Positions 1,816 to 34,733 of a DNA stretch of 34,819 bases are shown piece after piece. The notes below the pieces were generated by a model. That model was not told the origin of the DNA. It saw nothing but the letters and a program-made list of their open reading frames with translations, and ran no database searches. The stretch lies in assembly GCA_947174975.1 (NCBI GenBank), contig CAMWLA010000002.1, positions 1-34,819 on the forward strand, in the 5' to 3' direction. The first letter of the stretch is position 1. Each line of letters begins with the position of its first letter. This DNA is from an uncultured Clostridia bacterium. Its GTDB lineage: Bacteria > Bacillota > Clostridia > Christensenellales > Borkfalkiaceae. A program made the translations under genes and the position numbers.

Positions 1816-4800
1816 ATGAAAATTACGGGTACTAAAAAATTATTAATATTATTCTTCGCGCTTACTTGCTTGCTTGCATCGGCGCTGGGCGTTGTTATAA
1901 CACGCTCATCCGCAAGCAAAGGCGTCGCATACGCTGAAACTGCAGTTTCGGCACCAGACGTTGAAGAAGTGACGGAGGAGATCGCAGAACTCGAGGCTGA
2001 AGAAGCTTCAAAGGAGGATACGTTCTTCGAGGAAGAATACGACGCGCGTTACGACGAGGACGTCATCCGCAAGGTTGCGGAGCTTCTCGGCCGTAAGTAC
2101 GAGGCTATAAATTTATATTGCCACGCCAACGAGATTGACGCGCGCGAGCTTTTGGCGCTCCTTTTAGAGGATGAAGCGAAAAAGGCAGCTGAGCCCGCTG
2201 AGCCTTCTTTCAGTGTATACGTCGGACATGAAACGACGGGTGAAGAGTACGTTTCGCCCGAAGGTACTTCAAACTACTCTGAAGATGAGGCTTGGCCTCC
2301 GTTTGAAGAAGAAGAGAAAACAAATGCCGATGCAATTATTTCGGATCTTATCGATTTCCAGATAGCTTATACGGACGGCGAAATCACCCTTCCCGAAGGC
2401 TCGGAAGATAACGATTGGTACATAGCTCCCGACGACTTGACTACATACGCCACGACATATTATTTCATGGGCTATAACTTCAGTACTGCGGCAAGCCAGA
2501 TGGGTTGGAGCTTCTCTTCGACTCAGCTTAGAAATGCGAGGACTATTCATCATCCGGAGACAGCTGATCGGTTAGGTGGTAACTGGTCTTCGTTGTATTG
2601 GCAGTATGATCTTGAACTCGCTCCCGGCGAAACGTATACAATAACAAGACCTTCGGCTAACGTCACTTATAACACCGGTGCTGCATATGGCGCGAACGAT
2701 CACTGGGCATACGTTCTCAGCTACGGTTGGAGAAGCGAACCGAGTTGTAAATACGTTATAGACGGAGACGCTCCTTCGGGAACAGTATTTTATGTCGGGT
2801 CTACAATTTCCAATAATGGCAATGATAATAATCAGTATTATGGATGGCAAGCATATTATAGTTGGTATGCTGCTGACGCTAATCGTACATATAGAAATGG
2901 AGTTGCAGACAATAACGGCGCGTTCAATAACTATGCAACCAGATGCGCAAAGCAGATCAGTTTTAAATTTGTCGTAAAACGTACGGCTCCCGTTGCGCCG
3001 GAATTAGTTGACGATACGGCAACGAACGGCGGAGCTGTAAATCTTAGTACTAAAACAAAAACCGCTTACTATGAAGGTAGTCCCGTAGTTATTACAATGT
3101 CTCACGACTTCGGTGCGGGCATTATCGGTTATACTTACGACGACACCGTAACGTTGAAATCGCGTTCACAGCACGGTATGGATAACGGCGGTACGGCTTC
3201 CCCTACTTCACAGCTTAACGGTAAAAATATAGAATTCCAATGCTCAACTGCGGGAACTCACGTTATAAAAATAAAGCTACTGCAACCAACGGTAACGCAA
3301 ATATCGTGGCCGAGCGTGAACAATACGCCAAATAGTATGACTGCGGGTACCATGGTTCCCACCCGAATGAACTGGAAGGACAGCTCCGGAAATGCAATGT
3401 CCGTAACGGAAATATCCTTTACGCTAAAGATAGAGCTACAGAGTACTACCAAGCCGACTATGGTGAGGGACGACGGCGTTGACGGTTACGGGCAAACCAA
3501 AACTGTCAACTATACGGGGGGCGAACAGAAGATATCGTTCAGAAATGCCGACCCCGACTTTGTGGGATGGTCGTCAAACGGTCTTGTTCAAGATTCGTGG
3601 GATCCCACGACCAAAGTGCTCGTATTAAAGCAGACCGAGCGCGGAACTTACACTATAAACCTTTATCTTAAGAACCCCGCGGGCGTAGTCTGGGACGGCG
3701 ACGGCTCGACCGATACTTTGCAGTTTAACTTCTTTATAAAGGAAATGCTTATCGAAAGACCGACGATGGTCGGGTCTACGTCCTACAACAAGACTGTAAA
3801 ATATAGCGGCGGTGAGCAATATCTAAAAGTTGCACCGGCTGATGTGGATCAGTTAGTTATAATAGCCGCCGGTATTAAGTACGACCCCGCCGACGAGGAC
3901 GGCGACGGGGTGAACGAGACTATCGTCTTTAAGATGACGGATGCCGGTACGGTTTATATTAAGCTTTCGCCCGCCGAAGGCTACATCTGGAGCGATAAAA
4001 AAAGTGATACAATAACGTTCACTTTCACGATAGAGGCCGTTGAGGTTTCCGTACCCAAGCTTTTGGGTGGCGGAACTACGAAGACTGTAACCTTCAACCC
4101 CGAGAAAGATTGGGCTGCAGAGCTTGTAATTTTAGATATTCCGAGGGATGCAATAGCAGTTACTACGGCGTTGCAGTTCAATAGAGACGCCGACTGGCTT
4201 CCCAAGGACGTATACAACGGAACGGTTGCAATCGAAGATATGGCAAGCCAAGGCTATACCGAATACGATTACGACGTATTAAAGCTTTATGCGTCAAACG
4301 CCAACACCTATCCCGTTCAGTTTTCACTCACAAGCACCAACTACCGTTGGCCCGACGGCGCAAAGGTTCCGACGTTCTATCTGACAATCAACAGATATGC
4401 GCTTCAGACGCCGAAGATCTCCGATTACGAGTATACCAATAATAGGGATAAGATCGAAGGCTCAACTAAGACCATATATTATAACACCGACAGCACATCC
4501 GGTAATTATACGGATAATGCTGACAAATACTTCAAATTATATGCGGGCGGATTTACTTCCAACAAACAGGTTACCATAAGGTATTCTATGGAAGGACTCC
4601 GTGAAGAATGGCCCGATGAAACTGCGCCTAACCTCACGCTGTGGGGCACTACGCTTGGCGGAGCTTCTGGACCCGCGGGCAACTACATAATTTATATCAC
4701 GCCTACCAGCAATTACATTTGGGATACCGGCAATGATGATATGTACACATTTAAGTTCGTCATTACGCCCATTTATCGCGACCAGCTGAGAATGTACGTT

Positions 4801-7800
4801 CAGCAAGGTGCTGGCAGTGCATGGGTAGTCGACGGCGGCGATAGAACGGGTTCGGCAGATTACGACGGAACGGAAAAATTCTTCCGTATCGGTACGCCGG
4901 ACAGCGCTTCCCAGTTCTTCTACGACTCGGAAGCAACGTATCAGCTTGTAAACCAGGCGCATGAACCCACTTCCAGCTTCGGCGGCTTTACGATGGGTGT
5001 CAAAAACGACTACCCCGACCTTGACGGTAAAAAGCCTTCCGTATTGATGTGCAGTGCGATTGAAGCTGGTGTTTATATCGTTAGATTACAACTTCGTAAC
5101 ACTAACTACGCTTGGCGTGACGGTTCCGGTGTAGATATATTCTATACCTTTACCATAAAGGCTCAGTCTATAAAGGACCCCATAATTCTTCCTCAAGAAT
5201 GTTCGGGTCACGATCTTAAAACTTACGATACTTATATTCACTGCGGATATAACGGATTTGCGGCACAGCTCGTAATCGGGCTCAGCGACGTTAAAAACAG
5301 CAACGGCGAATCAATTGTCAAAGTATTCACCAACGCTTCGGGTACGGACGTTGACGAAGACGGTAATGACGCGCTTAAACTTCTCAGCTGGGGCGAAGGT
5401 ACCCAGGAGGATATCGGCAGACTTATACTTTCCGCTGTTGTAGTCGGCGATCATAAAGTATTACTTATGATCGAAGACACCAACTTTAGATGGGAAACCG
5501 ATTGCGAGTATTACGAATTCGAACTCAGAATCGACTATGCGGAAGTTGACGACGTCGTATTCAATTACGGCTTGCCTGACGATATGACGGAAATCGGCGG
5601 AAACGGCGAAAGATGGGAAGAGGAATTTAACCCCGAGGCCAGCCATTTCATAACCGTTACGAGATCCTCAGACGAGTTCAAGGGTACTGCATTCAATTCG
5701 CAGTTCAGAGTTGAAGTCAGCTGTGTAGACTCTGCTTATGCAGAAAGGCAAATCATCACGAACGACGATAACTTCGTAATCGAGTTCTACGATGCAAATA
5801 TTTACTATATCAGTATTTATCTTACCTCTAACTATCGTTGGAGATCTAACCACAGATCGGATACCGCGGTTCAGCTGACGTTCCAGCTGTATGCGAAATT
5901 CGTTGCGTTGCCTCAGATTGCCGATAACGAAGCGAACGCGTCGGTAAATAATTCCACGCGCACGAAGACGGTAACTTACGATACCGGCAAATCGCAGAAT
6001 ATTACGCTTATTTTCGGAAACGACTATAAAGCGTATGCTGTGGATGAATCGCAGATTCAGCCGCTCGGTGCGCTTAAACAAGACAAAACGGTAGTTATAA
6101 GCCAGTCCAAGATGGTAAGGTACACCGCAGTAAATGCGGGTTCGTACGTGCTTGCCTTGACGCTTTCCAACACGAACAACTATGCGTGGGCGTCCGGCGA
6201 CGATACCGTATTCTATACGCTTAAAATCGAACAGCGTGCAATTCCCGTTCCCGACGCGTTCTATATCGATGCGGACGACCTCAATAAGTTACATGAGGAC
6301 TACGCAGATATCAAGAGCGGAGTGAAGGGCGAGCAAATTCTTGAAGTGGCGGGAGAGTACAAGAAAGAAGTAATCTACGACGCGGATTTAAACTACATTT
6401 ATCTGTTCGGTTACGCTATCGAAAACAAAGAGGTAACCGTTGAAGTTACTCCTTTGAACCCCGACAACGTAAACGGTAAGGACCAAGGCTACGTATCCGT
6501 CGGCGGTGAAACCAAGGGCTACTACGTCTTTGCTAAGACGGTAAACGTCTATACAATTTCAGTTAAGTTTAACCTTAACACGGAATTCGGCAAGCCTAAC
6601 TGCCACTGGGCGGGCGTTTCCGCGGGTATCGATACCGATCCGAGAGATTATATTCTCGTAATCACCAAGAAGGGGCTCGATCTTCCCGAAATCGTCGGTG
6701 CACCTCAAGCTTGGACGGACAACAAAATCAGCAAGCACTTCACGTATGACGGCGCTGCTACGGGTCCCTCGATAGACGTTACCAACTGTCTTTCGTCAAC
6801 CGATTCAAGGCCGTTCATGCACTACGATTACGATACGTCAAGAACGGGTTACACCCTTGACAATTCGACGCATATACTTACGTTTAGCATATTAAAGACC
6901 GCGAACGTAGGCGTTGACTACACGTTGACTATATCGCTTGACGAGGCTAACGAGTACTGGAATACGGGCGTTCCGGGCGATATGTCCGACGTTGACGACA
7001 AGTATGTATCTATAATTATAGATAAGAAGGAAATAAACAAACCTACGGTCGTAGACACCGGCGACGGCGTCGTTGGCAAGGTAGTTTACGACGATCAGAA
7101 TCTTCCCGATATACTCTGGAAATCCGTTATTTATAACGCAAGCGTATGGACGGATGAATTAAGAGTTACCGGTTTCGACAGCAAGTGGATGACTTGGAAG
7201 CCTTCCGACTTTGCAACTACGAGAGAGGACACTAACGGCGATCTTCTGTTATCTACGACAAGAAGCGACGTGGGTACCTACTCGGTAATTGTAACGCTTA
7301 GGGATACTACCAACTTCAAATGGGCGTCTACGGCGGACGATTCCGACGACAGACTTCTCAGCCTTATTGTCGAACCCAAGAAAATCGCTAAACCCTCAAT
7401 TGTAATAAGTGACAGCAGTCTTGACCCTACCGACGGCACGATTACTTCGTCTGCGGGCAACACGACTTATGACACGGCTACTTCGATTTACATTAGGGAT
7501 TACGTAAACACCACTAACCTTAACGACCCGAAGGGCGTTGTACAGAAGATAGTTATTGAGAACTTCCTCTTCAACGATCCCGACGGCACAATGAAAGTTA
7601 CTACGGTTTCCACGGATAAATTCTCTGACAGCGAAGACGATACTACCAACGAATTGCTTATTTACAAAGCTGTCAATGCTGGCACGTATAAGCTTAAATT
7701 CTCGCTTACGGGCAACGTTGCGTGGGACGACGGTACCGGCACGGACGATTACTTCATCACGCTTACTATATCTAAGCGCGAGTATAAGCCGCTTACGATC

Positions 7801-10800
7801 GACGATCCGGGTGCGCTTCTGCCTATTCCCGAAATTACAGTTTCGGCAGACGGACTCACGAAGACGCTTACCTACAACTTCAAAGCCCAGCAGATGGTAA
7901 TAAACGACTACGACGTCAATATTATGAAATGGGACGGCACCACGCCCGATCCTACTACGGGCAAAGCGCTTGAAGATAAGGGCACGGCGGTTGTCGGCAC
8001 TATGACGACGTACACGTTTGAGGCAACAGACGCGGGTACGTACACTGCAACGTTCAGTTTGAGAAACTTCAGAAACGAATGCTGGACGGGTATCACGGAT
8101 TCCAATATTACTTTCACGTTTAAAATTGAAAAACTTGCAATTGCAATTCCCGAAATCGACACGAGCGTAGATTTCTTGCTTAACGGCGAAACCGCTACGA
8201 ATACGGAATTCAAGGTTACTTACGATACGTTAAGACACTCGGTTCTTGCACTCAACGTTCTCGACGAAAATTACATGACTTTCGCAATGGGCGGAGATTA
8301 CAACGACACCGTGTCGGATACGTTCCAAGTGAGCGACAGAGTTGACAGATCGTTCACCGGCACCGACCCCGGTCCGTACACGTATAATAGCGTTTCGCAA
8401 GTATTCGGTACTACGAAGCGCGACGGAGAATTCCAGAATACTTCGATTACTACCGGCAGCGACGTTGACAGAGTAAACTTCATTCTCTTACAAGCGACCG
8501 AACCCGGTACTTACGACGTAGTGTTCACTCTCGTTGATACGCTGAATATCGAGTGGGATGACAGCACAGTCGCAAACAAGAAGGTAACCTTCAAAATCGA
8601 AAAGGTTAAGCTTACTTCGCCTACTTATAAGGTGGGTGCGGCAAACAGCCAGACCTACGAAGGTAAACCCTTGAAGTTCTACGTTGCAAACGCAAACAAC
8701 AACGTTGCAACTCTCGGCGCGGTACCCGCATTCTACTACGAAACCGCATCGTACAGCTGCACAACCGAACAATCTAACAAAATTGAGCTTGTAAGCTGGT
8801 ACGGAAGCGAACTTATCGTTCAAGCTACGAACTACGGTACTTATGAAGTTAAAGTATATAGAAATACCAAGTACGTAGATTGGACCGATATAACCACTCC
8901 AGTAAAGACGTTTACTTTCTACATCACTCAAGCGGAAATCGTTCCCGAAATCACTTACGGCGATGCGATATTCGCGACGGGCGTTGGCGGTCCTATCGGT
9001 ACGTCAGACTCTTACACCAACGGACTTCTTGCCACGGGCGGAACTGCGTGGGCGAAGAGCAGAACTGTTACCGCAACCGTTAAACTGCCCAAATTGAGCG
9101 TAAAAGCTGCCACTGGCGAGCTTGACGTTGACGGACTTCAGATAGAAATCTATTATTTCAACACCGGCAAGCCTACGCAGAAGCTTCATTCGGATTCTAC
9201 AAAACTCGTATTTGCTCCTCCTTCGGATATAATTGACGCTACTACAATTTCCGGTCTTGTTGCGGGCGATCCCACAGACGGAATAAAGGTATCGACTGCG
9301 GATCCTAACTGGAGTATAGAGCTTACGGCGGCAAACGAATATAATCTCTACTATAAGTATCAGATTATTGCCGACGCAGATCCTACGTTCAATAACGGTG
9401 ACGGCACTCTCAAGAAGGGTACCTATAAGATTTGTGTAGAACAGAATAACGTCAGCAACAGCTACACAGTAAGAAAGGTAGATAAACCGTTTACTATCGA
9501 AGCGGATCCCGCACCGTTCAGCACCTCGAATACGGAAGTTAATATTATCTGGGAAGTTTACAAGGCAAGCGCTCCCACTACCGTACACGCAACTTACGTG
9601 CTTGCGGGCGCAACGTATACTAATTGGTATAAGACGGGCGCAGCGGGCGAAATGATGCCTACGGACGCAATCGAGCTTCCTTACCTTGAAAACGATTCGT
9701 ATTTCTTCAAGGTGAATTTCGACGCTACGGGCTTGCAAGGTCCCAATACCTTGATACTGCCGGCAACCAACTTTATGGATGCGCTGGACAGATGGGAAGT
9801 TAAGTGGGACGGCGTTTACGGCGGAACTTCGAGCGCAAGGTATGCTTCCAAGATTGGCACGACGCCTACACCTTACGAAGTAAGCATTACTTTAAAGGCG
9901 AAGGATCCCGACGCGTTCAGCTTCACGGATACTACTTTCAAATTCTTCTATCACATCACTCCAATACTTTATGACCTCAAGGGCATAGAGTGGGATTATG
10001 ACGGTACGCCTTTCGTATACGACGGCACGGCGCACACGGTTAAGCTTAAAAATCTTCCCGCGGGTCTGTCTGTAGCTTCTTACGACGTAACCGGCCATGA
10101 CAGAAACGTACAGATTTACGCTAAATCGGTTGCAGACCACGGCACGGGCGAGTATTACGAAACGCACGTAGAATTTACAACCTCCAATAAGAACTACGTC
10201 ATCCCCGTAGAGGGCGACAATGCTACTTATACCGACACAAGCCCCGCCGGCAGCGGTTTCGAGTGGTACGTTCGTTGGGAGATTGAAAAGGCTACCATCA
10301 ACGTCGTTTGGGATAACAAACTGAACGAGGACGGCACGTCATCGGCATACATTCCCAGGCTTAAATACGACAGCAACAAGGTCAACTATACCTACTTTAT
10401 GGACGACGGCAGCGGTAGTGTCAACCACACCAACTGGCCTGCGGTTACCTCGTTCGCGCACAGCGGTACCGTTGATTTCAAGGTTGTTGCAACGCTTAAA
10501 ACCAACGCTGACGATCCTGCACTCGATTACGACAATAACTATAAGTTTGATACGGATAATTTCCTTATCTTCCCCTTAGGTCCTTCGATGCAGATAAGCG
10601 TTGACCTATTCGTAGGAAATATAAAGGATGACGGCACTCCCGATATTCCTTCGTTCAAGCAGATTACTTTCGGCGATACTCCCGACGAGGCAACGAATGT
10701 AAATACGGTTATTTACAACGAAAAACCGTTTGAAATTTACCTTCAGCCCGAAGGCACGACCGACACTACGGGCGTTGCAACGGCGCTTAACGGCGTACCT

Positions 10801-16680: not shown

Positions 16681-16714
16681 GAATTCTTGAAAAAGTTAAT
16701 ACTGTAACACTTAA

Positions 16715-16742
16715 TAAGGTGTCGGCAAAAGCCGACACCTTA
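16715..16742 (+). terminator. Rho-independent terminator of giant gene 1
   Basis: TAAGGTGTCGGC-AAAA-GCCGACACCTTA perfect 12-bp stem followed by ATTCTTTTTTTAT. Confidence 0.95.
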
Positions 16743-16762
16743 ATTCTTTTTTTATGATAAAA

Positions 16763-16782
16763 AAACCGCAAGTTTGCGGTTT
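16763..16782. terminator. Second hairpin, possibly a terminator acting from the opposite strand
   Basis: AAACCGCAA-gt-TTGCGGTTT inverted repeat preceded by an A-run (T-run on the minus strand). No minus-strand gene needing it is evident. Confidence 0.45.
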
Positions 16783-16861: not shown

Positions 16862-16870
16862 AATATTATG

Positions 16871-16899
16871 TTGACAGAATAAATTGTTTATGTTACAAT
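16871..16899 (+). promoter_or_regulatory. Sigma-A/70-type promoter for the giant gene 2 - anchor gene operon
   Basis: TTGACA (16871-16876), 17-nt spacer, TACAAT (16894-16899). Homologous to 1715-1744. Confidence 0.8.
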
Positions 16900-22900: not shown

Positions 22901-25900
22901 ACCTTGCGTTCAAGACGGAAGGGTATACGAAGCCCGCGTACGTTGCCGGTAACGATTATGTCTTTAATGACGGTACGTTGAATTTCGGCGCGGAAAATGC
23001 CGGAAAATACGTAGTAAGATTCAAGCTCAGCGGCAACGCAGTATGGCTTGACGGCTCAAAAGACGATTTAGACGTTACCCTCATAATCAATAAGAAGACC
23101 CACACGGATCTTGCAATCTACCTTGACCGCGCCGACGCGAACGAGTGGTGCGACGAGGTTGTGGGCAACACCAAAACGTTTACTTACAAGCTTGATGCAA
23201 GCGGCAATCCCGTTGATGCGTTTATGAAAATCGTAAACTTCGACGATACGCTGATGACTTACGACAGCTTGATCAGCGGCACTATGTCCGCAACCCCCGG
23301 CGACGGTTATTTGGAAGAAAGCGGTACGGGTCTCGGACTCTCTGCCGACAAAACCAACTATACCGTCAAGGCGTTCAATGCGGGCGAATACGTAATTCAG
23401 TTCAGCCTTAAAGACAACGCTAACCACCGTTGGGAATTTGCCGACGTAGCAACTTGCACTTTCAAGCTGCAAATTAAAAAACTCAAGCTTTTACAGCCCG
23501 TAATCAATTCCGATTACAGCCTTACCAACGAAAGCATTGAAGGCAATACCCTTACCGTAGACTACGATAAGAATTTGCACACGATACTTGTTGAATCGCT
23601 CTTCGATAATCTGAATAACGGCGCTTACAGCGTTTTGGGTTCGAAATACTTTACCGTAGCCGATAATACTGCGGCAAAGAACCTTGCGGGCGACCCCGCA
23701 TACAATGCGGCAACCCACCTTACGGTATTCAAGTCGTACGACGATACGAAGACGGCCGGTCTCAAGATTAAGGACTTGTTCGAGGATACGGTAACGTTTG
23801 ATTCGACAATCCTCAATCCCGCATACTCGTACAACGGTGTCAGTGCGAATACGGATGCAGAGCTTATAAATCTGTTCCGTCTTACGGCTTACACCCCCGG
23901 CGATTACTATATGACCTTCACTCTCACCGATTCCGCTAATATGGAATGGTCGGGTGTGACTGGCAACGATATAGAGTTCAAAATCGTTATTAATAAAGTA
24001 GTGCACGACGCACCCGTCTTTGCGGGAAGTACTTTAATCACGCAGTCCAAGGAATATACCGGCGACAAAGTTGAGTTTACGTTCAACAACGTTTCAAACG
24101 GTAAAATGACGGCTGTCGGCGCGGTAATCACTACTGCAAGTGAAGAGTATGAGATTACCGGATACACCGGTCCGGACGCTACAATTACCGCAAACTTCGC
24201 AACGATGAATTTCGAAGTCAGCTGGTTCAACGGCGTTCTCGTTCTCGGCTTCACCGAGATAGGTACCTACAACGTAAGGATAAGTATTACGGATACCGAC
24301 TTCATCGCTTGGGACGGAACTACCGATACTTATAAAGATTTTGAATGTATCGTAGCAAAGCGCACCGTTAAATCGGAAGTGACCTTCTCGGCGCCCGGCG
24401 ATTCCGAGCTTGACGCAAAGCTCAGGGAGCATAAAGACGTTTGGCCGATAACGGTAACGGGCGGAGTAGGCGCACAGATAGTATTATCCGGACTTCGCAC
24501 GACTCCTACGGCCGCTTCTTGGAATCAGCGTCTCGGCTTCAAGGTTTACTACGAAAAAATAACCGACGTAGGCGTTGAGATAGGCTCAAAGACCTATGAA
24601 GATACGGATACACCCGTAATCTGGACTCCTCCCGTAAAACAGTCCGACGGCACCTATAGCTTGACGTTATGGTACGCGGAAATCGGTAACGGTAAGGGCA
24701 ATATCAAGAAGGGTAAATATAACCTCGTCATAGAGCAAGTCGATACCGACGGCAACCACAAACTGGATAAGGTTATCGTTCCCTTCGAAGTAGAGGGCGA
24801 TCCCGCTCCTTTCAAGGCGGAAATGCTTGAATGGGTATATACGAGAAATATCGATCCCCCTTCAACAGCTCCCGCTTCCGTAAACGATCAAGGTGCGAAA
24901 CCCGAAAACAGATTCATTCTCAATTACGAGGAAGGCGTAACCTACACGTTCTTGCCTAAGCTTAAATCTGCATATGGCGGTTACGACGGTTCTAATCCTC
25001 TTTTCGTAACTCAGCTTGAAACGTATTACGTTACTTGGGACAAAAGTTATGACGGCGTTCAGAGTCCTCTTAATGCCGGGGATAATTACGTCAAGATAGT
25101 TATCAAGTTAGACGTAGCTAATTCCGACACCGAAGACTACAAGTTCGACGATTACGAATTCATTCTTTACTACAATATTAAGAAAGCTAAGTACAACCTC
25201 AGCAATCTTGAATGGTACTATGACGATACCATTGCTACGGCGCCTTACACGTATACTTACGACAATGCCGACAAGTCGGTAAGCATAGTTGCCAAAACCG
25301 GCACTACCATGCCTACGGGTCTTGTTCCCAGTGCGTATAAGACGGGCGGCATCTATCAAACGGCGGCTACTCCCAATGTAGACTTCCCCGTTGCAACGGT
25401 AAATACTAATTTAATGAGGTATGCGGGTCAGTACACTACGGAAGTAGAGTTTACGGTTACGAGCCCCAACTATGAAAGACCTATAAAGGGCGATCCCGAC
25501 ACTTACGACGGTTCGTTCGAGTGGACGAGAGACTGGACCATTACCCCCCAGCACATAGTAGTTGACTGGGTACAGGGACAGACGACCTCCTCCGACGGTA
25601 CCGTAACCACGCGTTCGAAACCTTCGGTTGCGGGAACGCACGCGGGTAAATTCTCGTTCATCTACGAAGTCGAGGATTCAAGTCAGCCTACGGGTTGGAG
25701 AGCCGTTTCTGCAATTACGCGTTCGCCCGGTCAAACCATAATGTACAGAGCAACCGCTTCTTTGAAGCCCGGTTCCGGTGCAACAGATTACGCACGTAAC
25801 TATACGTTCGAGTTTTTGGGCGGCGACGATCCTACGATAGGCAATCCCCTTGAATTCGAAGTCGGCGGCGACGATACGATAATCTACAACCATATCACGG

Positions 25901-28900
25901 TTGACGGCAAAATCGAACTCGATTACGAGTATACGGGCAGTGCATTCGAAGCTGATACGGAAATCGACTTCGATACGTCAAACGGTCAGATTACAGTTGC
26001 CGGAAACATCAACATTCTGTACTATAGAAGAGATTTGACTACCGGCGATCCCGTAGGTTCACCTATCGCGGCTCCTTATGATATCGGTAATTACATTGTA
26101 ATACTCAAGCTCAGATACAGCGGTACTACGGAAGACTTTGCGCTCAGCGAAGACAGATATGAGTACAACATCATTAAGGCTAAGTTGAAGGCGGAAGACT
26201 TTGAGTGGCGCGTTAAGCACAACGACGGCACCAACGATATCGAAGCTGTATACAGAGACGATCTCGGCGGAAAGTGGGTTAACGTAGACACCAAGGAAGA
26301 GGTAACCGTTGAATACGACGGCAAGCCTTACGAGGTATATCTCTACTCTGAGTTTGCTGCTTCGATAATCCGTTTCACGTACACGGACGCTTCGCAGATT
26401 TATGCGGATACCTATACGACGACGGCTACGGATATAATGGATACGGCTCATTACGAGTTCGACCCGTCAGATCCTCCTTCGTTGACGTTCACTTGGGAAA
26501 TCAAGAAACATTTCCTTGACTTGAAGAACGTAAAGTGGAACTACGAAGAAGCTTACGTATTCACGGTAGTCAACGGCACACCTAAGGCGTTCTTTGTCGA
26601 AATCGATAATCTTCCCGATTACCTCTCCTCAGACAAAGTAAAGTACACCGTATACCGCGGTGCGGAATTTGTCGACGGTGATATTACCGATTACGGTACT
26701 TACACGACTACGGTCGAAATTCTCGAAGATAAAATCGATACGGATAACTACGAGTTGGGTACTTGGCCGGCAGCGGTTGAGAAAACCATCACGTGGGAAA
26801 TCAAGCGTAGAGAGTTAGTCGTTCCCAAAGATGACAGAAGCTGGTCTGAATTCGACGGTGTTCAGCACAATCTCTTAAAGCCTTTCGGCTTTGCGGTAGA
26901 TTGGAACGAATACTTCGACGTTGAAGTAACTTATACCGACTTCGAAGGTAACGTAACTCCCAACTACGACGGAACGGCAAGGTTCGGCGGAAAATACTAT
27001 GCGTATGACGCGGGTACTTACAAGTTTGATCTTAAAATCAAGCAGAAGTTCAACGGCGGAACCGCAGCAGATCCCCGTAACAATATCGTTTGGGTCGTAA
27101 CGGATGATGAAGGAACGCGTAAAACTCCCGACGATCAGCCCGTTTCGTATAAAGTAGAAAAGAAGCAGCTTATCGTAACCGGCTGGGTTGAAAACTTCGA
27201 ATTATCTCGAGTTGTTCTTTTCGGCAATATCGATTCCGCTAAGTTTGTAGATTACGACTTCTATAAAGGTAATTCGGGTTCTGCCGGCGCAGAAGCAACG
27301 CTTAACGACGTACTGCAATCGGCGGGCGGAGACGTGTTCTCTATGGTTCCCAAAATCCGTGGAGCGTACACCGGAAATATAGAGCTGTCCTATGAAACTA
27401 AGGATAAGTTCATTTCGTTCACGACTCCGGAAATTACCGAAGATAATGCGGATAAAGTAGTCGGCAAACCTTATATCTACGGATATTCGATTAACGGCTC
27501 GATCACGTATTTCACGAACGATCAGATTGCGGCTGGCGATATATCAGTCACCTACACGGGCGAAGATATAACGTTCAGAATTCAAAACTGGGATACTTAT
27601 TACAGTCAATACGTAACCGTTTACGGCGGATCGCTTGACGATTTGACACAGCGTGAAGCCGGTGAATACACGTTGACTCTCATTCTCAGAACCGATCTTG
27701 AGAAACCTCTTTATTGGGGCAAGACGGACGATAATAAAATCGACCGTTCGGCAGTAGAACTCAAATTCAAAATCAGCTACAAGATGCTGACGATACCCGA
27801 GTTACCCGCTGAAATCACTTATAACGGCAGCGTAATCAATATTCTTGAAAAAGCTACCAACTCAACGTATTCGAAACTGCTTGCAGAATACGGCAATTAC
27901 GTTGAAATTTCGGGCAACACGGCTATTAACGTAGGCGAGCAGACGCTGTACCTCAACATCAAAGAAGAATACGGCAACGCTGTAAGATGGAACAACAATA
28001 CCGACCAAGGTATCGTAGGCGCTTACACGTTTGCATGGAAGATTATTCCCGTACTCATTCAGAAACCCGAAAAGGACCTCGACGTGAGAATTGAATACGA
28101 CGGATATGCGCACAGCGTATTCGAAGTACTCAAAGGCTATGACGAAAAGAATCCTACCCCCGCAATCGCTACGCTTATGGCTAACATAAACGAAGTCAAC
28201 GGACGCAGCATCAACGCGGGTGAATTCGAGGCAGAGCTTTCGCTTCCCAACAATAATTACTCTTGGTGCGATGCAGACGGTAAAGCGCTTGCAGACAGAT
28301 CACCCGTGATTATTCCTTGGAAGATCGGTAAGAAAGTCATCGACTTCGGTGACGCTTACTGGGGTTATATGGACGGCGAGGAAGAGGTTGCATACGATGA
28401 AAATTCACCGTTCACGTTCACTATCGTAAACGGCAGAGTTAAGAACTTCACCGTAGAAATCCTCGGTATGCCCGAAATTCTTAAAACTTATACATCTTAC
28501 AGCACTAACGGCTTGCCCGGAAATTCAGCCGGTGCAGTAAGTACTTACACCACTACGGTTGTATTCGATCTGGATAGAATCGACAGAAAGAACTTCGAAG
28601 TAGGCGTTCTTCCCGACGACATTTCACAGTTGGTATGGAAGATAGTACCTCGCGAAATCGATCTTCCCGAATACGACGAAAGCTGGACTACGTTTGACGG
28701 AAAAGTTCACGACCTTACCGCACTTTTAGGTCTTCCCGAAGACTGGGCGGAATATCTCGACATTTCCGTTGAATACAAGGCAACGGAAGCTGATTCGTAT
28801 GACGCATATATGGGTGAAGACGATTACGTCGTCGGTTACTCGAATTATAACGGCTTCTACTTCGGCTTCTACAAGATAACCGTGACCCTTAAAACCGGTT

Positions 28901-31900
28901 CGTCTATCCTCGGCAACGTCAAGTGGGTAGGCGGAGTTGCTCCCGAAGATATCGTAATAGAGGTATCCGAGCTCATAATCAACGTTACAGATTGGTTTGA
29001 GGACGACGAAAACTCATACGTTATGCTTGAGGACGGCGCAACCCTTCCCGACGAAATAGCGGAAAGATTAGAATACATTCTCTACGAAGACGGCGATACG
29101 AACAAGACTTTGTTGAAGCCCGATGATATCGTCGGAGGAAAGAAGTATTACATCGAGTACGTATTTAAGACCGGCAGAGACGAAAAGGGCGTTGCGTACA
29201 ACTACGGTATCAAACTCGTGTTTGCAAAGGGCGTTCCCAATCCCCTTGAATTCGACACCGGAAACTACGGCGATCAGCCTATAATCTGGTTGCCCGCACC
29301 CGTTCTCAAAACGGCGGTACTTGAATACAACGGTGAAGCACAGACGTTTGTAATCAACGGTATGGATTCCGTTTACAAGCTCACCTATGCAAAGAAGAAC
29401 CAGCTTAACGCAATGTACTCGCTCGGACTCGGCGATAACGTCAACAGCTATATCTATCTGACAAACGAAAAAGCCCTTACGGCTACTTCTGCAGGTACGT
29501 ATACTGCGGTTATCAAACTTCTGGGCAAAGTAAGACTTTCGTGGTACGACAGCACTGTTTACAGTGTAGACTCAAACGGAAATCTTATCTACAAGTCAAG
29601 CGGTTTCACGGTACCTAATGCCGAAAATCTGTTTAACAACAAATCGTTCACCGTTTCGTACACGATTACTCCTAAGAGAGTTCCCTTATTGACCGATGAA
29701 GACCTTGAAAAGCTTATGGGCATAATCGTCGGCTATGACGGAACCGAAAAGGACGTAACCGTAGAAGCGAAGGAAGTATTTGACGAGCTTGAAGCAAAAT
29801 ACGGCAAGATATTCGACTACGCGGGCAAAACCGGCACTGCGGCAGCTGAATACGAGCTTACTATAACCCTTGCTGATCTTTCAAGCAGCTACTGGTACTC
29901 CGAAGAGCCTACCAAAGAGGTAGTATCCAAGGTAAGACTTGACGGCTATGAGTTCAAATACGTTCAAGACGGTTCAAGCTGGAAGCTTGTGCTTGTCAAA
30001 GTAGACAAATACGGAACTCCCGAACTTGATTCTGCGGGTAAATACGTTGAATTCAATTACGGCGAGTATGACGTCGACGTTGAATATCTTCCCGATTTCG
30101 AATACGAATTCGTCAAGATTAAAGAAAACGACGGCGATCCCGAAGCACTCTGGCTTACGAACCCCGACGGTACTATCAACGTAGCAAACAGCTACTTCCT
30201 TGATGAAGACGGCGACCAAGTAACTATTGACGGCAAGTTCGTTACGTACACCTACGAAATGGATAAAGCCGATAACACGGTTGTGGTTTGGTATAAGAAA
30301 GACGATACTCTCGGCTTCATTCCTACCACCAACCCCGACGAAGCCGAATACGTTAAACGTATCGTGCTCGACATAAATGCAGACGTTAAGTACGGTTACA
30401 AGAAGTATAAGACCGAAGACGCAACAGAATACACGTATCTGTTCAATAAGCTTACGATCGTAGACGGCGTTCCCGTTGCGATTGTTGACAGCGAAGGAAA
30501 GTTTATCGATACGTATCTGTTCTTCAACGGAACCGATTACGAGCTTCGTAAGTACGATCTTGACACGGACGGCAAATTTATTTCCGACGGCGGAACTCAC
30601 TACACCTTCACACCGGTTGAAGCAACGTGCGAAATGGTTAACAGTGATTTCTACACGATTTCGGGCGGTAAGTTTGTTGTTTCCGTAACCGGCGAGTATA
30701 TGCTCAGATACGTACTTGACGGCACTAATAGAAAACAGCAAATTGTATATGCTAAAGATGATAACGGCAACTTAATCGTTGATACTGAGTTCACTGTTGT
30801 TTCCGAAGACGTTTATGTAAGAATAACGGATAAGGAATACAAAGTTAAGTGGGAAATCAGTAGCGCGGTTCTTCCGATGCCCGAATTCGACGAAGAAAAG
30901 ATGCAGCAGTACACCGGCGGCACGTTATATGCAAAAGACGTACTCAAAGGCTTCTTGCCCGACCTTATGGAAATCGTAGAGGGCGGCGAAGGAGTCGACG
31001 CGGGCGAATACACTGCAAAGATTATAATAACTTCGCCTAACTCCAAGTGGAATCCTAACGATACCACCGAGGATTACGTCCTTGTAAAATGGCGTATCGA
31101 TACTGCAAAGATCGATTTAAGCGAAGTTAAGTGGGTATTTACCGACGGTACTAATACCTATGACGATTGCAGCGAATTCGTATATACCCGAGTAGACGGC
31201 AAACCCGTTGTTTACTGGGTAGAGCTTGCAAATCTTCCCGAAGCATTGAAGAGCAAAGTTACCTTTACCACCAACAACAAACCCGGCGCTTATGCCGGAA
31301 CCGATGTGGGTAAATATACCACCCTCGTTGAATACGGTACCGAAAACGATCCTAACTTCGAGGCGTTCGATATACCCGAAGAATTAAAGGTAATCGAGTG
31401 GAGCATCAAGAGAAGATTCCTCGACGTTCCCGAAATCGGTTCGGTATGGCTGGTATTTGACAGCGAAAAGCACGATTTGCGTGAAGTTTTGGGACTTCCC
31501 GAAGATTGGAACGAGTATTACACAATTAAAATTCTGTATGCAGACAACTTCGTTGACTATAAAGATTATAAGGGCTACGAAGGCGACCCGTACACAGCAT
31601 TCGGATCGGGCGCATACAAGTTCACGTTCACAATCAAGACGGGTATCAACCCCACAGTAACCAATCCCAACGTAGTTTGGAAAACGACCGGAACTAATCC
31701 CCCCGTTTCGGGGGGGCCGGCCGAGTCCGGACCGAGCGAGTCGGGGCCCGAAGCTTCTGCTCCGGAAGGTGAATCTCTTGAAGCTCCGACGGCTGCCTCA
31801 TTCGTTTCCGTTTATTCGGAAGAAATAGAGGAAAGCACCGCTATCGTTGAGGAGACGGAAGAAGTTAAACTTGTAAAAGCCGAAATCAAAGAAACGGCGA

Positions 31901-32019
31901 AGCAAGAAGTTAAAGTTGACGGCGACGTTCACGTTCAAGAAGTTTGCGACAGACTTAAAGAGCTTGCATTCGGTGCAGAACCTCAAATAAAGTCTTTTAG
32001 AAAAAGAGGTACGGTATGA
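16972..32019 (+). CDS. Giant secreted surface protein 2 (about 5015 aa), full-length colinear paralog of giant protein 1
   Basis: ATG 16972 preceded by GGAG; the TTG start at 16960 in the ORF track adds only MEYV and is unlikely. MKITGTKKLLLSFFALACALGTGLGFG...ITAYA|AS signal peptide. About 36 Ig-like modules match giant 1 module by module. C-terminus VCDRLKELAFGAEPQIKSFRKRGTV. TGA overlaps the next ATG. Confidence 0.92.
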   Translation: MKITGTKKLLLSFFALACALGTGLGFGLSRSGATDITAYAASDKHVLPMAVGERASDAVSAADIEARDALAEATGIPADFISFYARSNNGTEKELYDSYVEDELTTFDGMKSFAEMYSEGELVPEEDISDEDWYVSPDQTAGYAPYWSCYLIGLGDSWSNYYSSKPGGITTEQQYYRNANFTMGYYVKWDQRKSATHHAMGKHNYMLYNIVWLEEGESYTFGFNSATGMNSVYCETTSSVNFLSTSTLLSNGSYSGYVRDYLFNSTKANEATVPNPKVNIDPDTSRNTYNDYLDEFGSTIAPASSDYTSSLGTGTGAKRMTIKPDAPSGAYMIVLQSSNNTQAGTQFIWWNRGGGSWRCNYNGYVADGTGNTVYSIYCTYATLVCRKGITKPKLEYNDGVSADLSSKTVNFNNEDHEMIIQGDWGSGLMDYQISEYVGGTWVPAAKNTSSTNVTQVSRGTRGSITKAGNLKFKAKNAGQYKIEITPFRNWKVESNEKDESDRTPVTFYFTIKPRELTIPTIMDDNVGTIDSATNTKSVFRTGKSLYISIYPAPTTWTTYDNPDGLSQFDWSTNGVLTLSHSEQHVYTVTINLKYNTPTQTNLSWSDGTTSPKTFKFDIGPMKVVVPDIIKDGGGGVTTFTKTVEYNGAYQILSFMPVDEDQLVINAINVTTGMGLSKTNTPLVPDTFCIKDNTLTLTALDAGRYEMTVSVSDEYVFDDPALSVELTYVLIINPKPIDAPILNEPTAVNNVKTVTYGGEKMADGTTDWIATLEFINADQSRIDWVSDTLNDAGWLDSTLKLAGRSAKIYDVTFTPKKNYRWKDGVTVPTYTLVIEKLKIGDPQLVKDGEAGATYDGPSASTPTSKTVRFNGDPHPFKIYFPTLASVKDIIYTKASSIEMQYNGTFDREWDGDYVTFKTSTAGEYTFEIFPTQNYCWSDGTTGSKIFNFIIQPIDIKSLEFWATNQWATGIQQYFYTSNGFNAIINYDGTPKTMRIGNDKPTTEAHKYQLTGDYAMYFGILDENGGFVDRTDEGLTGLAAKLPDGVTCTQENGYLTLTMTTAGVYRVAVMLQNTNFWWTETMSTQVVYTLTINPEGITAPEIDTAKCEGHDIHGHFSDTSMHGTYYNVDFALALKLDAKFTDEEYQDLIEVITPDNQTFVYIANRSDSLILQERDEALAEKNGTYTDWYNGVLYFYAKDQGEYNWTVKIISPNHAWAGKTEKEITFTITIDRSPVSGLEMHYVGDEEENKNILVQGATNVWGDAINALTVKYELAVYSEANKVIFFKRTSTDHLVDTGFSAQFSYVVNKFVMDSDYDVEDLTDVTELVFDDGELRLGVLDAGTYEIVITPTDNYCWNDNSKSISSIKFTLVINKLTIDTPLVILDDGSTTLTGVKEAEYDHKYLTMQLDLLTWPKGYAIKSFEYVSTDKADREAEGDLKPVKISGTGDLHGTDDVNLGVDVDTGLMSVQAQSAGEYLLTVVVSNVNNYQLAAGDKLLYRFNISRLSVSLPDAFLYKTHLTETEAKAIDKTDADVRVMAGSADASKFNSENSNTAEFDSYYHAVYLYGDSIKLGDFNITVETKTGNGDVKQEIIQPVDTVDGTSDATNYFRLAAFGVDTYTIVLKFNTRDFYWDKDISSSGQTRSYKFVITSKLISVPTVKGESNITLIDNRYTVEFPYVKDVATPNDSHRMITLTHVEFGVAIAGTTPTEYAIINSKVSTSSTANGVLLTNFPNQINGSYDPVYGEITMATSLDGIVGGEAKVTYTYVIELNIDPNNMRWDTGAEGDTLTKYYEIKIVKQKIARPYIIDTKNTTGNDKYVVYDGSDWVEELQIALMDPALISHTLSVTTMTDMLDTTDPDYANLLKVTAPAPAATYTVVAKIIDPDNAEWLDGSTDDITFNLIVNPIEVAKPYILIPTGSTEAQEGVVGWTKTVTYEDVGGVVEHFMNVNGFWQQDGSKFTDLPSGTQIPDVMTYTIENLAFKTEGYTKPAYVAGNDYVFNDGTLNFGAENAGKYVVRFKLSGNAVWLDGSKDDLDVTLIINKKTHTDLAIYLDRADANEWCDEVVGNTKTFTYKLDASGNPVDAFMKIVNFDDTLMTYDSLISGTMSATPGDGYLEESGTGLGLSADKTNYTVKAFNAGEYVIQFSLKDNANHRWEFADVATCTFKLQIKKLKLLQPVINSDYSLTNESIEGNTLTVDYDKNLHTILVESLFDNLNNGAYSVLGSKYFTVADNTAAKNLAGDPAYNAATHLTVFKSYDDTKTAGLKIKDLFEDTVTFDSTILNPAYSYNGVSANTDAELINLFRLTAYTPGDYYMTFTLTDSANMEWSGVTGNDIEFKIVINKVVHDAPVFAGSTLITQSKEYTGDKVEFTFNNVSNGKMTAVGAVITTASEEYEITGYTGPDATITANFATMNFEVSWFNGVLVLGFTEIGTYNVRISITDTDFIAWDGTTDTYKDFECIVAKRTVKSEVTFSAPGDSELDAKLREHKDVWPITVTGGVGAQIVLSGLRTTPTAASWNQRLGFKVYYEKITDVGVEIGSKTYEDTDTPVIWTPPVKQSDGTYSLTLWYAEIGNGKGNIKKGKYNLVIEQVDTDGNHKLDKVIVPFEVEGDPAPFKAEMLEWVYTRNIDPPSTAPASVNDQGAKPENRFILNYEEGVTYTFLPKLKSAYGGYDGSNPLFVTQLETYYVTWDKSYDGVQSPLNAGDNYVKIVIKLDVANSDTEDYKFDDYEFILYYNIKKAKYNLSNLEWYYDDTIATAPYTYTYDNADKSVSIVAKTGTTMPTGLVPSAYKTGGIYQTAATPNVDFPVATVNTNLMRYAGQYTTEVEFTVTSPNYERPIKGDPDTYDGSFEWTRDWTITPQHIVVDWVQGQTTSSDGTVTTRSKPSVAGTHAGKFSFIYEVEDSSQPTGWRAVSAITRSPGQTIMYRATASLKPGSGATDYARNYTFEFLGGDDPTIGNPLEFEVGGDDTIIYNHITVDGKIELDYEYTGSAFEADTEIDFDTSNGQITVAGNINILYYRRDLTTGDPVGSPIAAPYDIGNYIVILKLRYSGTTEDFALSEDRYEYNIIKAKLKAEDFEWRVKHNDGTNDIEAVYRDDLGGKWVNVDTKEEVTVEYDGKPYEVYLYSEFAASIIRFTYTDASQIYADTYTTTATDIMDTAHYEFDPSDPPSLTFTWEIKKHFLDLKNVKWNYEEAYVFTVVNGTPKAFFVEIDNLPDYLSSDKVKYTVYRGAEFVDGDITDYGTYTTTVEILEDKIDTDNYELGTWPAAVEKTITWEIKRRELVVPKDDRSWSEFDGVQHNLLKPFGFAVDWNEYFDVEVTYTDFEGNVTPNYDGTARFGGKYYAYDAGTYKFDLKIKQKFNGGTAADPRNNIVWVVTDDEGTRKTPDDQPVSYKVEKKQLIVTGWVENFELSRVVLFGNIDSAKFVDYDFYKGNSGSAGAEATLNDVLQSAGGDVFSMVPKIRGAYTGNIELSYETKDKFISFTTPEITEDNADKVVGKPYIYGYSINGSITYFTNDQIAAGDISVTYTGEDITFRIQNWDTYYSQYVTVYGGSLDDLTQREAGEYTLTLILRTDLEKPLYWGKTDDNKIDRSAVELKFKISYKMLTIPELPAEITYNGSVINILEKATNSTYSKLLAEYGNYVEISGNTAINVGEQTLYLNIKEEYGNAVRWNNNTDQGIVGAYTFAWKIIPVLIQKPEKDLDVRIEYDGYAHSVFEVLKGYDEKNPTPAIATLMANINEVNGRSINAGEFEAELSLPNNNYSWCDADGKALADRSPVIIPWKIGKKVIDFGDAYWGYMDGEEEVAYDENSPFTFTIVNGRVKNFTVEILGMPEILKTYTSYSTNGLPGNSAGAVSTYTTTVVFDLDRIDRKNFEVGVLPDDISQLVWKIVPREIDLPEYDESWTTFDGKVHDLTALLGLPEDWAEYLDISVEYKATEADSYDAYMGEDDYVVGYSNYNGFYFGFYKITVTLKTGSSILGNVKWVGGVAPEDIVIEVSELIINVTDWFEDDENSYVMLEDGATLPDEIAERLEYILYEDGDTNKTLLKPDDIVGGKKYYIEYVFKTGRDEKGVAYNYGIKLVFAKGVPNPLEFDTGNYGDQPIIWLPAPVLKTAVLEYNGEAQTFVINGMDSVYKLTYAKKNQLNAMYSLGLGDNVNSYIYLTNEKALTATSAGTYTAVIKLLGKVRLSWYDSTVYSVDSNGNLIYKSSGFTVPNAENLFNNKSFTVSYTITPKRVPLLTDEDLEKLMGIIVGYDGTEKDVTVEAKEVFDELEAKYGKIFDYAGKTGTAAAEYELTITLADLSSSYWYSEEPTKEVVSKVRLDGYEFKYVQDGSSWKLVLVKVDKYGTPELDSAGKYVEFNYGEYDVDVEYLPDFEYEFVKIKENDGDPEALWLTNPDGTINVANSYFLDEDGDQVTIDGKFVTYTYEMDKADNTVVVWYKKDDTLGFIPTTNPDEAEYVKRIVLDINADVKYGYKKYKTEDATEYTYLFNKLTIVDGVPVAIVDSEGKFIDTYLFFNGTDYELRKYDLDTDGKFISDGGTHYTFTPVEATCEMVNSDFYTISGGKFVVSVTGEYMLRYVLDGTNRKQQIVYAKDDNGNLIVDTEFTVVSEDVYVRITDKEYKVKWEISSAVLPMPEFDEEKMQQYTGGTLYAKDVLKGFLPDLMEIVEGGEGVDAGEYTAKIIITSPNSKWNPNDTTEDYVLVKWRIDTAKIDLSEVKWVFTDGTNTYDDCSEFVYTRVDGKPVVYWVELANLPEALKSKVTFTTNNKPGAYAGTDVGKYTTLVEYGTENDPNFEAFDIPEELKVIEWSIKRRFLDVPEIGSVWLVFDSEKHDLREVLGLPEDWNEYYTIKILYADNFVDYKDYKGYEGDPYTAFGSGAYKFTFTIKTGINPTVTNPNVVWKTTGTNPPVSGGPAESGPSESGPEASAPEGESLEAPTAASFVSVYSEEIEESTAIVEETEEVKLVKAEIKETAKQEVKVDGDVHVQEVCDRLKELAFGAEPQIKSFRKRGTV

Positions 32020-34733
32020 AAACATTAAGTACTAAAAAATTATTAATATTATGTTTCACGCTCATATTTGCGGTAGCAACGGGGTTGTTTGCAACCTTAC
32101 TTTGCCGCAATGCTTACGCTGTCGTAAATCCCGACTCCATCGTCGTATACGATGAAGAGGGCGGAGAACCCGCCGGCGACGATAACACCGGCGATAATAC
32201 GGGCGATAATACGGGCGACAACACCGGCGACACCGGCGACACCGGAACTAAAATTCCCGGTGATGACGCAATTGCTAAACCACAACCCGGTGATGATGAG
32301 CCTGTGCCCCCCGCAGTTATCGAGTTGGTTGTCGAAGTCGACAAACTTGTATTGCGCGTTACCGAGTGGGTACGTCCCGTAACCCCCGAATCACAAGCGA
32401 TTATCAATAGAAACCCTTACGGCGAATACAGTAACGACATGGTTGCTAAAATCGACGCGCTCATTAAAGACGGAACCTTTATCAGCTATTCCATTTGGGA
32501 TATGGACGGCAACCCCGTTACGGATATAACCGCTCTTCCCGCGGGAAGTTCGTATTTCATTCACCTCGACGTCAATGAAAAATACAAAAATTTCGTTGTA
32601 ATCGAGTATGCGGACGGCATCGAAAGAAGTCTTGCGGGTCAAATTGCTTTCCCCACAAGCGAACCGCTTGAACCTTTCCCTCAATTAAATCCGCTCACGA
32701 AAGAGTATGACTATGCGGGTAAGCCCATAGACGTTAGGGCTGATTTCCTTAACGGTTTGATAGCGGGCAATGAAGATTACCTTGTAATCGTAGAAAGCGA
32801 AAGCGACAATTTCGTTCAGAACGGTGCGGGCGAATTCCATTACAGAATAGCTTTTAAAACCGACGCTAAGGTATATTGGGAAGGTACGTCAAGAGACAGA
32901 ACTCCCGCAGACGTCATCGTTACGATTAAGCCTTTGGTTTTATCTACAAAGGATATCGACTTCGGTGAAATACCCTATACCGGCTTAAAAATCGATATAT
33001 CCGATAAAATTGCCAACTACGAAGCATTCAAGGGCTACGTAATAGGTCAGAAGGTAAGCATCGGAGCAGCCAATTCCGGCACAGTCGGTGAAGACGTCGG
33101 CGAATACGAGGTTAAGTTGGTAATTAAATCCGAGGTTGCCAACAGCATTAAGTGGGAAGACGACGTAGAGTACGTAATCGTAAAGTGGTACATTTCGAAG
33201 ACGGTAATTGCCGGCGAATGGGACACTTTCGGTGAGTTCGGTATAATGACTATCGTCAGTGACGTGTACAAGGGCGGTGACGCTAAGGCAATTAAGTACA
33301 CGTATTACGACATTACCGACGGTGCTGCACCCGGCCCGGATACAAAAGTAACCAAGCTTGACCAAATCGGTCATACGTATAGAGTTGAAGTTGAATTAAT
33401 CAACGAAAACTTGGAATTCACTCCCGAGACTGTGCTTTTCCACGAGTTCACTCTCGAACACGAGATTAAAACGCTTGAAAAACCCGTAATCGAGGTTGTC
33501 GAGCAAGAATTCACCGGCGAATCGATTACTTTCAAAGTTACTATCAACAATATCGATATTACCGATAGCGAACTTGCCGAGTATATCGAAATTGTTACAG
33601 AGGAAAGCGACAGCCTTACCCAGACAAACGCCGGCGAGTACACGGTAGTAATCCGTCTTAAAGAGGGCGTGTTCTGGACTACCGAAGACGGCGGTTACTT
33701 CACCAACGACGAGCGTTTGACCTTCACGATCAAGGCTACCGAGCTTGACGTAAAGTGGAACGAAGATACGGGTATCCCCACCTACGAAAGTAAGTACACG
33801 GGTAAAGATTATTCTTCCTACGTTATATGCACGTATTACGACGAGTTGAATAACGAAATATCCATGGCTGATATGGTAGTAGGCGGAACTTATAAAGCAG
33901 TTCTCACGCTTACGGATCTCGGCGCAGTAAACTTCACTTGGAAAGATATAAGAAAAACCACGTTTGAATTTACCCTTAAAGTAGCTTTCGAAACGGTAGA
34001 AGTTCCTTCTTTCGAATCATCCTTTGATTTCACCGGTAAGGCAATTGAAAATTATCCCGTCGGCTGGGATGATATAAAGGATAAAGTTACCATTATCGGC
34101 GGAGATAAAAACGGTTTCGTACAGACTAACGCCGGAACCTACACGGTTGTAGTTCAAGTTAACGAAGGCTTAATCTGGAAGGGCGAAGGCAGCGAAAACG
34201 TTTTGGTTGCCGGCGATACCGTAATCTTCAAGTTCACGATCAACAAAGCAGTGCTTACAATCGAAGAATGGCAAGCAAACGGAAAAGTTAAATTCACCAG
34301 TAGTTATACCGGTAATTACGACGACGTTGTAGATTATGTCTACTATAAGAAAGACGACGTCGAAAAAGCTCATCCGCTTACGTTCAATGACTTGGTTGAG
34401 GGTGAATCTTATATTGTAGTAGTAAAGCTTAAAGCGGGTCAGGAAGCAAACTTCAGCGCTCCCGATCTTCCCGCCGAACACGAGCTTGCAAGCTTCAAGC
34501 CCGACCCCGCTCCGAGCAGCGGCGGTATCCCTTGGTGGGTATGGCTGATTATCGGCGCAGCGCTTCTCATTCTTATCTTAATTATAATCATTATAATTAT
34601 TATCTTGAAGAGACGTAAGAAGGACGACGAATACGACGACTTCTACGGCGACGAGTATTACGGCGACGAAGAAGGCGACGGCTACGGCGAAGGCGACGGC
34701 GACGGCGGCTACGACGACTACGGTGATTATTAA
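32016..34733 (+). CDS. Membrane-anchored Ig-like repeat protein (905 aa): signal peptide, DNTG/DTG low-complexity linker, about 8 modules, Ile-rich TM, acidic D/E/G/Y tail
   Basis: MKTLSTKKLLILCFTLIFAVATGLFATLLCRNAYA|VV signal peptide. GGIPWWVWLIIGAALLILILIIIIIIIILKRRKK TM plus stop-transfer. Tail DDEYDDFYGDEYYGDEEGDGYGEGDGDGGYDDYGDY. Overlaps the upstream stop as ATGA with AGAGG 7 nt upstream. Confidence 0.95.
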   Translation: MKTLSTKKLLILCFTLIFAVATGLFATLLCRNAYAVVNPDSIVVYDEEGGEPAGDDNTGDNTGDNTGDNTGDTGDTGTKIPGDDAIAKPQPGDDEPVPPAVIELVVEVDKLVLRVTEWVRPVTPESQAIINRNPYGEYSNDMVAKIDALIKDGTFISYSIWDMDGNPVTDITALPAGSSYFIHLDVNEKYKNFVVIEYADGIERSLAGQIAFPTSEPLEPFPQLNPLTKEYDYAGKPIDVRADFLNGLIAGNEDYLVIVESESDNFVQNGAGEFHYRIAFKTDAKVYWEGTSRDRTPADVIVTIKPLVLSTKDIDFGEIPYTGLKIDISDKIANYEAFKGYVIGQKVSIGAANSGTVGEDVGEYEVKLVIKSEVANSIKWEDDVEYVIVKWYISKTVIAGEWDTFGEFGIMTIVSDVYKGGDAKAIKYTYYDITDGAAPGPDTKVTKLDQIGHTYRVEVELINENLEFTPETVLFHEFTLEHEIKTLEKPVIEVVEQEFTGESITFKVTINNIDITDSELAEYIEIVTEESDSLTQTNAGEYTVVIRLKEGVFWTTEDGGYFTNDERLTFTIKATELDVKWNEDTGIPTYESKYTGKDYSSYVICTYYDELNNEISMADMVVGGTYKAVLTLTDLGAVNFTWKDIRKTTFEFTLKVAFETVEVPSFESSFDFTGKAIENYPVGWDDIKDKVTIIGGDKNGFVQTNAGTYTVVVQVNEGLIWKGEGSENVLVAGDTVIFKFTINKAVLTIEEWQANGKVKFTSSYTGNYDDVVDYVYYKKDDVEKAHPLTFNDLVEGESYIVVVKLKAGQEANFSAPDLPAEHELASFKPDPAPSSGGIPWWVWLIIGAALLILILIIIIIIIILKRRKKDDEYDDFYGDEYYGDEEGDGYGEGDGDGGYDDYGDY
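32181..32246 (+). repeat. 12-nt (DNTG) tandem repeat decaying into a 9-nt (DTG) repeat
   Basis: gataacaccggc / gataatacgggc x2 / gacaacaccggc followed by gacaccggc, gacaccgga. Confidence 0.95.

Follow-up and report, generated by a model that had tools for sequence, protein, structure and literature searches.

How do two exported proteins of about 5000 residues each, which have neither an LPXTG-type motif nor a membrane anchor of their own, stay on the cell that makes them? The question is raised by a stretch of 34,819 nt (hereafter the window; contig CAMWLA010000002.1 of assembly GCA_947174975.1, a genome labelled G000) in which three intact open frames, giant 1, giant 2 and a 905-aa membrane-anchored protein, follow one another (Table 1). 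All three have the same type of start, MKITGTKKLL or MKTLSTKKLL followed by a hydrophobic stretch and an AYA-type cleavage site, recognized by eye. This agrees with an earlier note on this DNA, which had read the three as secreted proteins with alike signal peptides.

Table 1. Features of the locus; positions are those of the window unless a contig or residues are named.
Feature	Position	Strand	Remarks
Upstream half of locus	G000:C17 (L074) 178-15440		Joined to window position 1
Coiled-coil protein, C-terminal part	1-1470	+	Exact 47-bp overlap with end of G000:C17
Giant 1 sigma-70-like promoter	1715-1744	+	TTGACA-18-TAAAAT; conserved in alignment with G114 and G078
Giant 1	1816-16680	+	ATG start, 4954 aa
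Giant 1 signal peptide	about residues 1-40		
Giant 1 module array	3058-16419	+	About 34 modules of ~95 aa, predicted beta-rich
Giant 1 tail, last 28 aa	16594-16677	+	Predicted to form two short amphipathic helices; preceded by a disordered linker of ~70 aa
Intrinsic terminator after giant 1	16715-16742	+	12-pair, strong, separates the giants
Giant 2 sigma-70-like promoter	16871-16899	+	TTGACA-17-TACAAT; the leader that follows resembles the giant 1 leader
Giant 2	16972-32019	+	ATG at 16972, 5015 aa
Giant 2 signal peptide	about residues 1-40		
Giant 2 module array	18190-31710	+	About 35 modules
Giant 2 tail, last 27 aa	31936-32016	+	VQEVCDRLKELAFGAEPQIKSFRK core
905-aa membrane-anchored module protein	32016-34733	+	8 modules
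905-aa protein signal peptide	about residues 1-35		
905-aa protein C-terminal transmembrane helix	34518-34601	+	Hydropathy peak, hydropathy-window starts 834-852
905-aa protein KRRKK stop-transfer and acidic Asp/Tyr/Gly-rich cytoplasmic tail	34602-34730	+	
Intrinsic terminator after 905-aa protein	34764-34787	+	Closes giant 2-anchor operon
G114 orthologues	giant 1, C60; giant 2, C60/C132; 905-aa protein, C132		

Both giant promoters score 11 of 12 matches and the leader regions that follow are 74% identical to each other; the promoter core and the start region are conserved in two relatives, G114 and G078. No giant-type promoter precedes the gene for the 905-aa protein, whose ATG overlaps the stop codon of giant 2 by 4 nt (ATGA). 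Promoters, terminators and this overlap thus indicate that giant 1 is expressed alone and giant 2 together with the 905-aa protein as one unit. Regulation common to all three genes, as it had been claimed, holds for the two giants and not for the 905-aa protein, which is coupled to giant 2 only. A short GC hairpin (GGGGTTTTGCACCCC, window 1767-1781) lies in the leader common to both giants; the forms found ahead of giant 2 and in G114 are similar but altered. Searched against Rfam, the giant 1 leader returned nothing convincing.

The window does not hold the whole locus. Its start joins the end of a second contig of the same genome (G000:C17), which carries an LRR_5 protein of 1868 aa with a C-terminal transmembrane helix, a 177-aa protein with an N-terminal transmembrane helix, a 2303-aa fibre with a C-terminal transmembrane helix, an Asp/Tyr tail and a DUF6273 match, and the start of the coiled-coil gene that ends within the window. 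This last gene start encodes an N-terminal transmembrane helix and a Lys/Arg-rich segment, and the protein is predicted by the positive-inside rule to be cytoplasmic. The upstream gene order is the same in G019:C4 and G078:C65, reaching the giant where the contigs allow, while G100:C11 shows the upstream part of the locus and G114 shows the locus in pieces. Since the window begins in the middle of a cluster, the three-component system of the earlier note reflects the start of the contig and has to be given up for a larger one: what the window shows is the downstream half of a cell-surface locus that is conserved in a lineage of uncultured gut Clostridia. Across the genus, many proteins share a C-terminal transmembrane helix followed by a basic stop-transfer sequence and an acidic, often Asp/Tyr-rich tail (loci L003-L031, L075, L102, L108, L135 and L138), with 29 matches in G010 and 16 in G020, partly in large ORFs of 1500-2200 aa. 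The long Lys/Arg-rich segment of the coiled-coil protein might bind such acidic Asp/Tyr tails.

Among the 94 species genomes of the genus that made up the comparison set, the N-terminal part of the giants finds matches in six, five of them convincing (G000, G114, G100, G078 and G019), and a scan of genome collections gave only those same relatives. The two giants and the 905-aa protein recur in G114 in unchanged order (65 and 69% identity for giants 1 and 2, 65% for the 905-aa protein), and by the dN/dS ratios between the two species (0.12, 0.11 and 0.16, respectively; Nei-Gojobori, with dS near or beyond saturation) all three are under purifying selection. Open frames of about 5000 codons, together with ratios of 0.11-0.16 against a second species, exclude chance. 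A full-length orthologue of the 905-aa protein is present in two of the five giant-bearing genomes (G000 and G114), a count limited by contig breaks: none was found in the G019, G078 and G100 bins, in all three of which the 3' ends of the giants are unassembled, so that the missing orthologue is not proof of absence. A search with the end sequences found no contigs adjoining the giant ends in these three bins.

Several observations were made on the giants of these relatives. At the 3' ends of G078:C65 and C25 and the 5' starts of G100:C41 and C40, giant contigs break in stretches of 77 and 55 bases that are identical between paralogues; these lengths are probably the k-mer length of the assembler, and the breaks suggest that the ends of the giant genes are homogenized within a genome. 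A short sequence at the start of a further giant contig (G100:C41, 1-61), within giant coding sequence, is present in many copies across G100, with identities of 75-100%. In G114:C51 (L099; 2820-4724), the N-terminal fragment of a giant, about 31-42% identical to giant 1, follows a coiled-coil gene; it is distinct from the giant 1 orthologue on C60 and is probably a third giant of G114 or the product of a co-binned strain. The giant 1 equivalent of G019 is frameshifted (C4, L072, about 1500-1800), with 4181 aa followed by a frame of 519 aa, possibly through an assembly error, as a pseudogene or by frame switching. In G078, a gene ending in DYGDSSDIGDDYNL, an anchor-like Asp/Tyr tail, directly precedes the second giant. 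The gene after the anchor in G114 (C132, L108; 3781-4271) looks, by eye, like a member of the alpha-amylase family, with an FYQIFTDRF motif.

The two giants are collinear over their full length (32% identity over 4439 aligned residues, rising to 51% in residues 4601-4800), and since they align end to end they are tandem paralogues. A module profile tiles giant 1, giant 2 and the 905-aa protein with about 34, 35 and 8 modules, respectively, of about 95 aa each. A profile built from the modules of the giants alone picks out four in the 905-aa protein (E from 3e-7 to 2e-4); 40 shuffled control sequences gave no match. This bears out the common module family that had been proposed. The same profile also matches a 7625-aa protein of G078 and, within the cluster, the 2303-aa protein. 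A model of a single module (31 window modules) comes out as beta-rich, with a pLDDT of 82. When giant 1 and the 905-aa protein were scanned against Pfam and NCBIfam, nothing rose above cut-off. Module-wise searches of Pfam, PDB profiles and Foldseek gave only weak Rib-, MBG-, PKD- or cadherin-like leads: an MBG match in one of the 31 modules (E=0.0056), the adhesin LAR_0958 as the best PDB profile match (E=0.0045) and, in Foldseek against the PDB, no significant match, the best being Rib domains of Gram-positive adhesins (E=0.07).

Which anchors, then, do these proteins have? Hydropathy shows no C-terminal transmembrane helix in either giant and a very strong one in the 905-aa protein, with hydropathy-window averages above 3, and no motif of the LPXTG type ([LN]PxT[GAS]) occurs in the giants or in the 905-aa protein. 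No sortase (PF04203) was found in G000, G114, G078, G100 or G019, with positive controls and with G000 and G100 being 81 and 97% complete, respectively. As none was found in five genomes, one of them nearly complete, the sortase route is unlikely and was rejected. Attachment through SLH domains was also rejected, as the five genomes hold a single marginal match, in G100, and giant 1 and the 905-aa protein hold none. The earlier note had described exported giants with neither LPXTG nor a transmembrane helix at the C-terminus, next to a third protein that alone has a transmembrane anchor, and on all these points it is upheld. The 7625-aa giant of G078, of the same module family, has a C-terminal transmembrane helix of its own; anchoring in cis is therefore an option open to the lineage, and giants 1 and 2 depart from it as exceptions.

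What the giants do have at their C-termini is a short conserved tail. The consensus [V/I]QxxCxR[I/L]KxL...ExxxKxFRK is found in all four assembled giant C-termini, from two species, as the note had anticipated in pointing to a conserved C-terminal motif in both giants. In the 94 genomes, a search with the tail finds these four C-termini at E<=2e-14 and no other significant match, the next best being at E=0.005; in G019, G078 and G100 the contigs stop within the repeated giant ends. In giant 1, the linker that precedes the tail evolves near neutrality (dN 0.84, dN/dS about 0.76), and dN in the tail is 0.15. In a model of the giant 1 C-terminus, the modules reach a pLDDT of mostly 75-95, the linker is disordered (below 50 over residues 268-337) and the tail forms two helices, with low confidence (pLDDT about 50). 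The first helix lies between the 97.6th and the 100th percentile of hydrophobic moment, and the net charge of the tail is +2 or +3, as against -309 and -322 for the giants and -77 for the ectodomain of the 905-aa protein. Such a tail on such a linker would fit the appearance of a tethered retention or docking element.

The 905-aa protein had been cast as a dedicated anchor. Its C-terminal transmembrane helix, the coupling of its gene to that of giant 2 and its place in G114 speak for this part; however, its ectodomain is tiled by ordinary modules, so that no dedicated docking domain is seen. Moreover, the protein resembles the C-terminal 400 or so residues of the 2.2-2.3-kaa transmembrane fibre of the cluster (E=3e-22 in G100 and 9e-14 in G078) and, judged by its modules, this "anchor" is itself a short module fibre.

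We propose that two tandem, anciently duplicated genes would encode Sec-exported fibres of about 35 beta-rich modules each, roughly 140 nm long if extended, which have neither a transmembrane segment nor a sortase signal or SLH domain and would rely on non-covalent retention through the C-terminus. A flexible linker of 70-100 residues would present two amphipathic helices with a positive net charge, and their likeliest partner would be an acidic, membrane-proximal surface component from the same locus. The first candidate would be the 905-aa protein, on account of the co-transcription layout, its co-conservation in G114 and its acidic ectodomain; the fibres themselves would probably act in adhesion or spacing at the cell surface. 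We give this explanation as a whole, of tail-held fibres with an acidic surface component of the locus as partner, an even chance of being right. Its parts differ in strength: the giants are likely to be held non-covalently through the tail, docking to the 905-aa protein is only a tentative candidate contact, and other attachments to the envelope through the tail are, in sum, somewhat more probable than that docking.

Wall polymers or the membrane are equally conceivable as what the tail binds. That the tail binds the envelope directly, through anionic wall polymers or the membrane surface, with the 905-aa protein being a shorter fibre and no docking base, is a possible though doubtful reading: the tail is cationic and strongly amphipathic on an otherwise acidic giant, the 905-aa protein is missing from three of the five giant-bearing bins, and the giants of Apilactobacillus kunkeei, which also lack a transmembrane segment, have been proposed to attach loosely through a cationic C-terminal SH3b-like domain (PMC12863079). 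However, scans of giant 1 and the 905-aa protein revealed none of the known wall-binding domains, the tail is far shorter than such domains, and the gene for the 905-aa protein is co-transcribed with giant 2 and conserved beside it. Other membrane-anchored proteins of the cluster could also be the partner of the tail. Attachment to the upstream 2303-aa or LRR transmembrane proteins instead of the 905-aa protein would account for the three genomes (G019, G078 and G100) where these genes adjoin the giants and no 905-aa orthologue was found; but the giant tails of these genomes are unassembled and the upstream genes are not co-transcribed with giant 2, and we consider this partnership improbable. 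It is likewise improbable that the giants are released as a matrix or spacer, with the tail serving export, folding or giant-giant assembly, since they are tightly clustered with at least four membrane-anchored proteins and, in a set of proteins otherwise built on modules, same-module giants, such as the 7625-aa protein of G078, carry a C-terminal transmembrane helix. For release speak the lack of an anchor in cis, the occurrence of the A. kunkeei giants in the supernatant as well as in the lysate (PMC12863079) and the conserved Cys of the tail, which could mediate pairing.

Among described systems, the Giant1-5 cluster of A. kunkeei comes closest and follows the same logic: consecutive genes encode exported repeat proteins of 3000-8000 aa that have a signal peptide, no transmembrane segment and a conserved segment at the C-terminus by which they are proposed to be kept on the wall, in a likewise small genome of about 1.5 Mb (PMC12863079). 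The A. kunkeei giants have a beta-solenoid at the N-terminus, repeats that are mostly helical, and DUF5776/SH3b-like domains at the C-terminus (PMC12863079). The giants of the window, in contrast, are built from beta modules with a two-helix tail and lie next to a module protein that is anchored by a transmembrane helix; Pfam found no DUF5776/SH3b-like match in giant 1, and its C-terminal model has no SH3b fold.

In the cellulosome, a C-terminal two-helix element of an exported protein docks to a surface scaffold, through the cohesin-dockerin pair. This pair is an analogy for how the giant tail may work; unlike a dockerin, however, the tail has only about 27 residues, without duplicated calcium loops, and Pfam gave no dockerin or cohesin match at E<=0.1 for giant 1 or the 905-aa protein. 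Ebh of Staphylococcus aureus is built of helical repeats. It is a giant repeat surface protein with its own C-terminal transmembrane/cytoplasmic domain (PMC6548404), and the 905-aa protein and the 7625-aa giant of G078 seem Ebh-like in this anchoring, whereas giants 1 and 2 have no transmembrane helix and cytoplasmic tail in their own chain and the module fold differs. A 7651-aa adhesin of Mobiluncus mulieris is, like the giants, a chain of tens of modules, Ig-like in its case, but it is anchored by LPXTG and sortase (PMC10619420), neither of which was found for the window giants. In gene layout, the locus can be likened to gli123-gli349-gli521-gli42 of Mycoplasma mobile, which encodes giant surface proteins with repeats of about 100 aa and a small partner alongside, as the gliding machinery of a wall-less cell (PMC7052211).

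Should the 905-aa protein be the partner, a form of trans-anchoring not described before would be at work in sortase-less Gram-positive-type bacteria, in which a short C-terminal two-helix plug, borne on a flexible tether by fibres of about 500 kDa, clips into a dedicated membrane-anchored module protein from the same operon, as a minimal counterpart of the cohesin-dockerin pair; from the sequences at hand we hold this to be conceivable, if rather unlikely. The tail could also serve as a tag for protein display. In any event, these small-genome gut bacteria spend about 2% of the genome on two giant exported fibres, and the 27-residue tail, together with the adjacent membrane protein, is a concrete and small candidate for a new attachment device.
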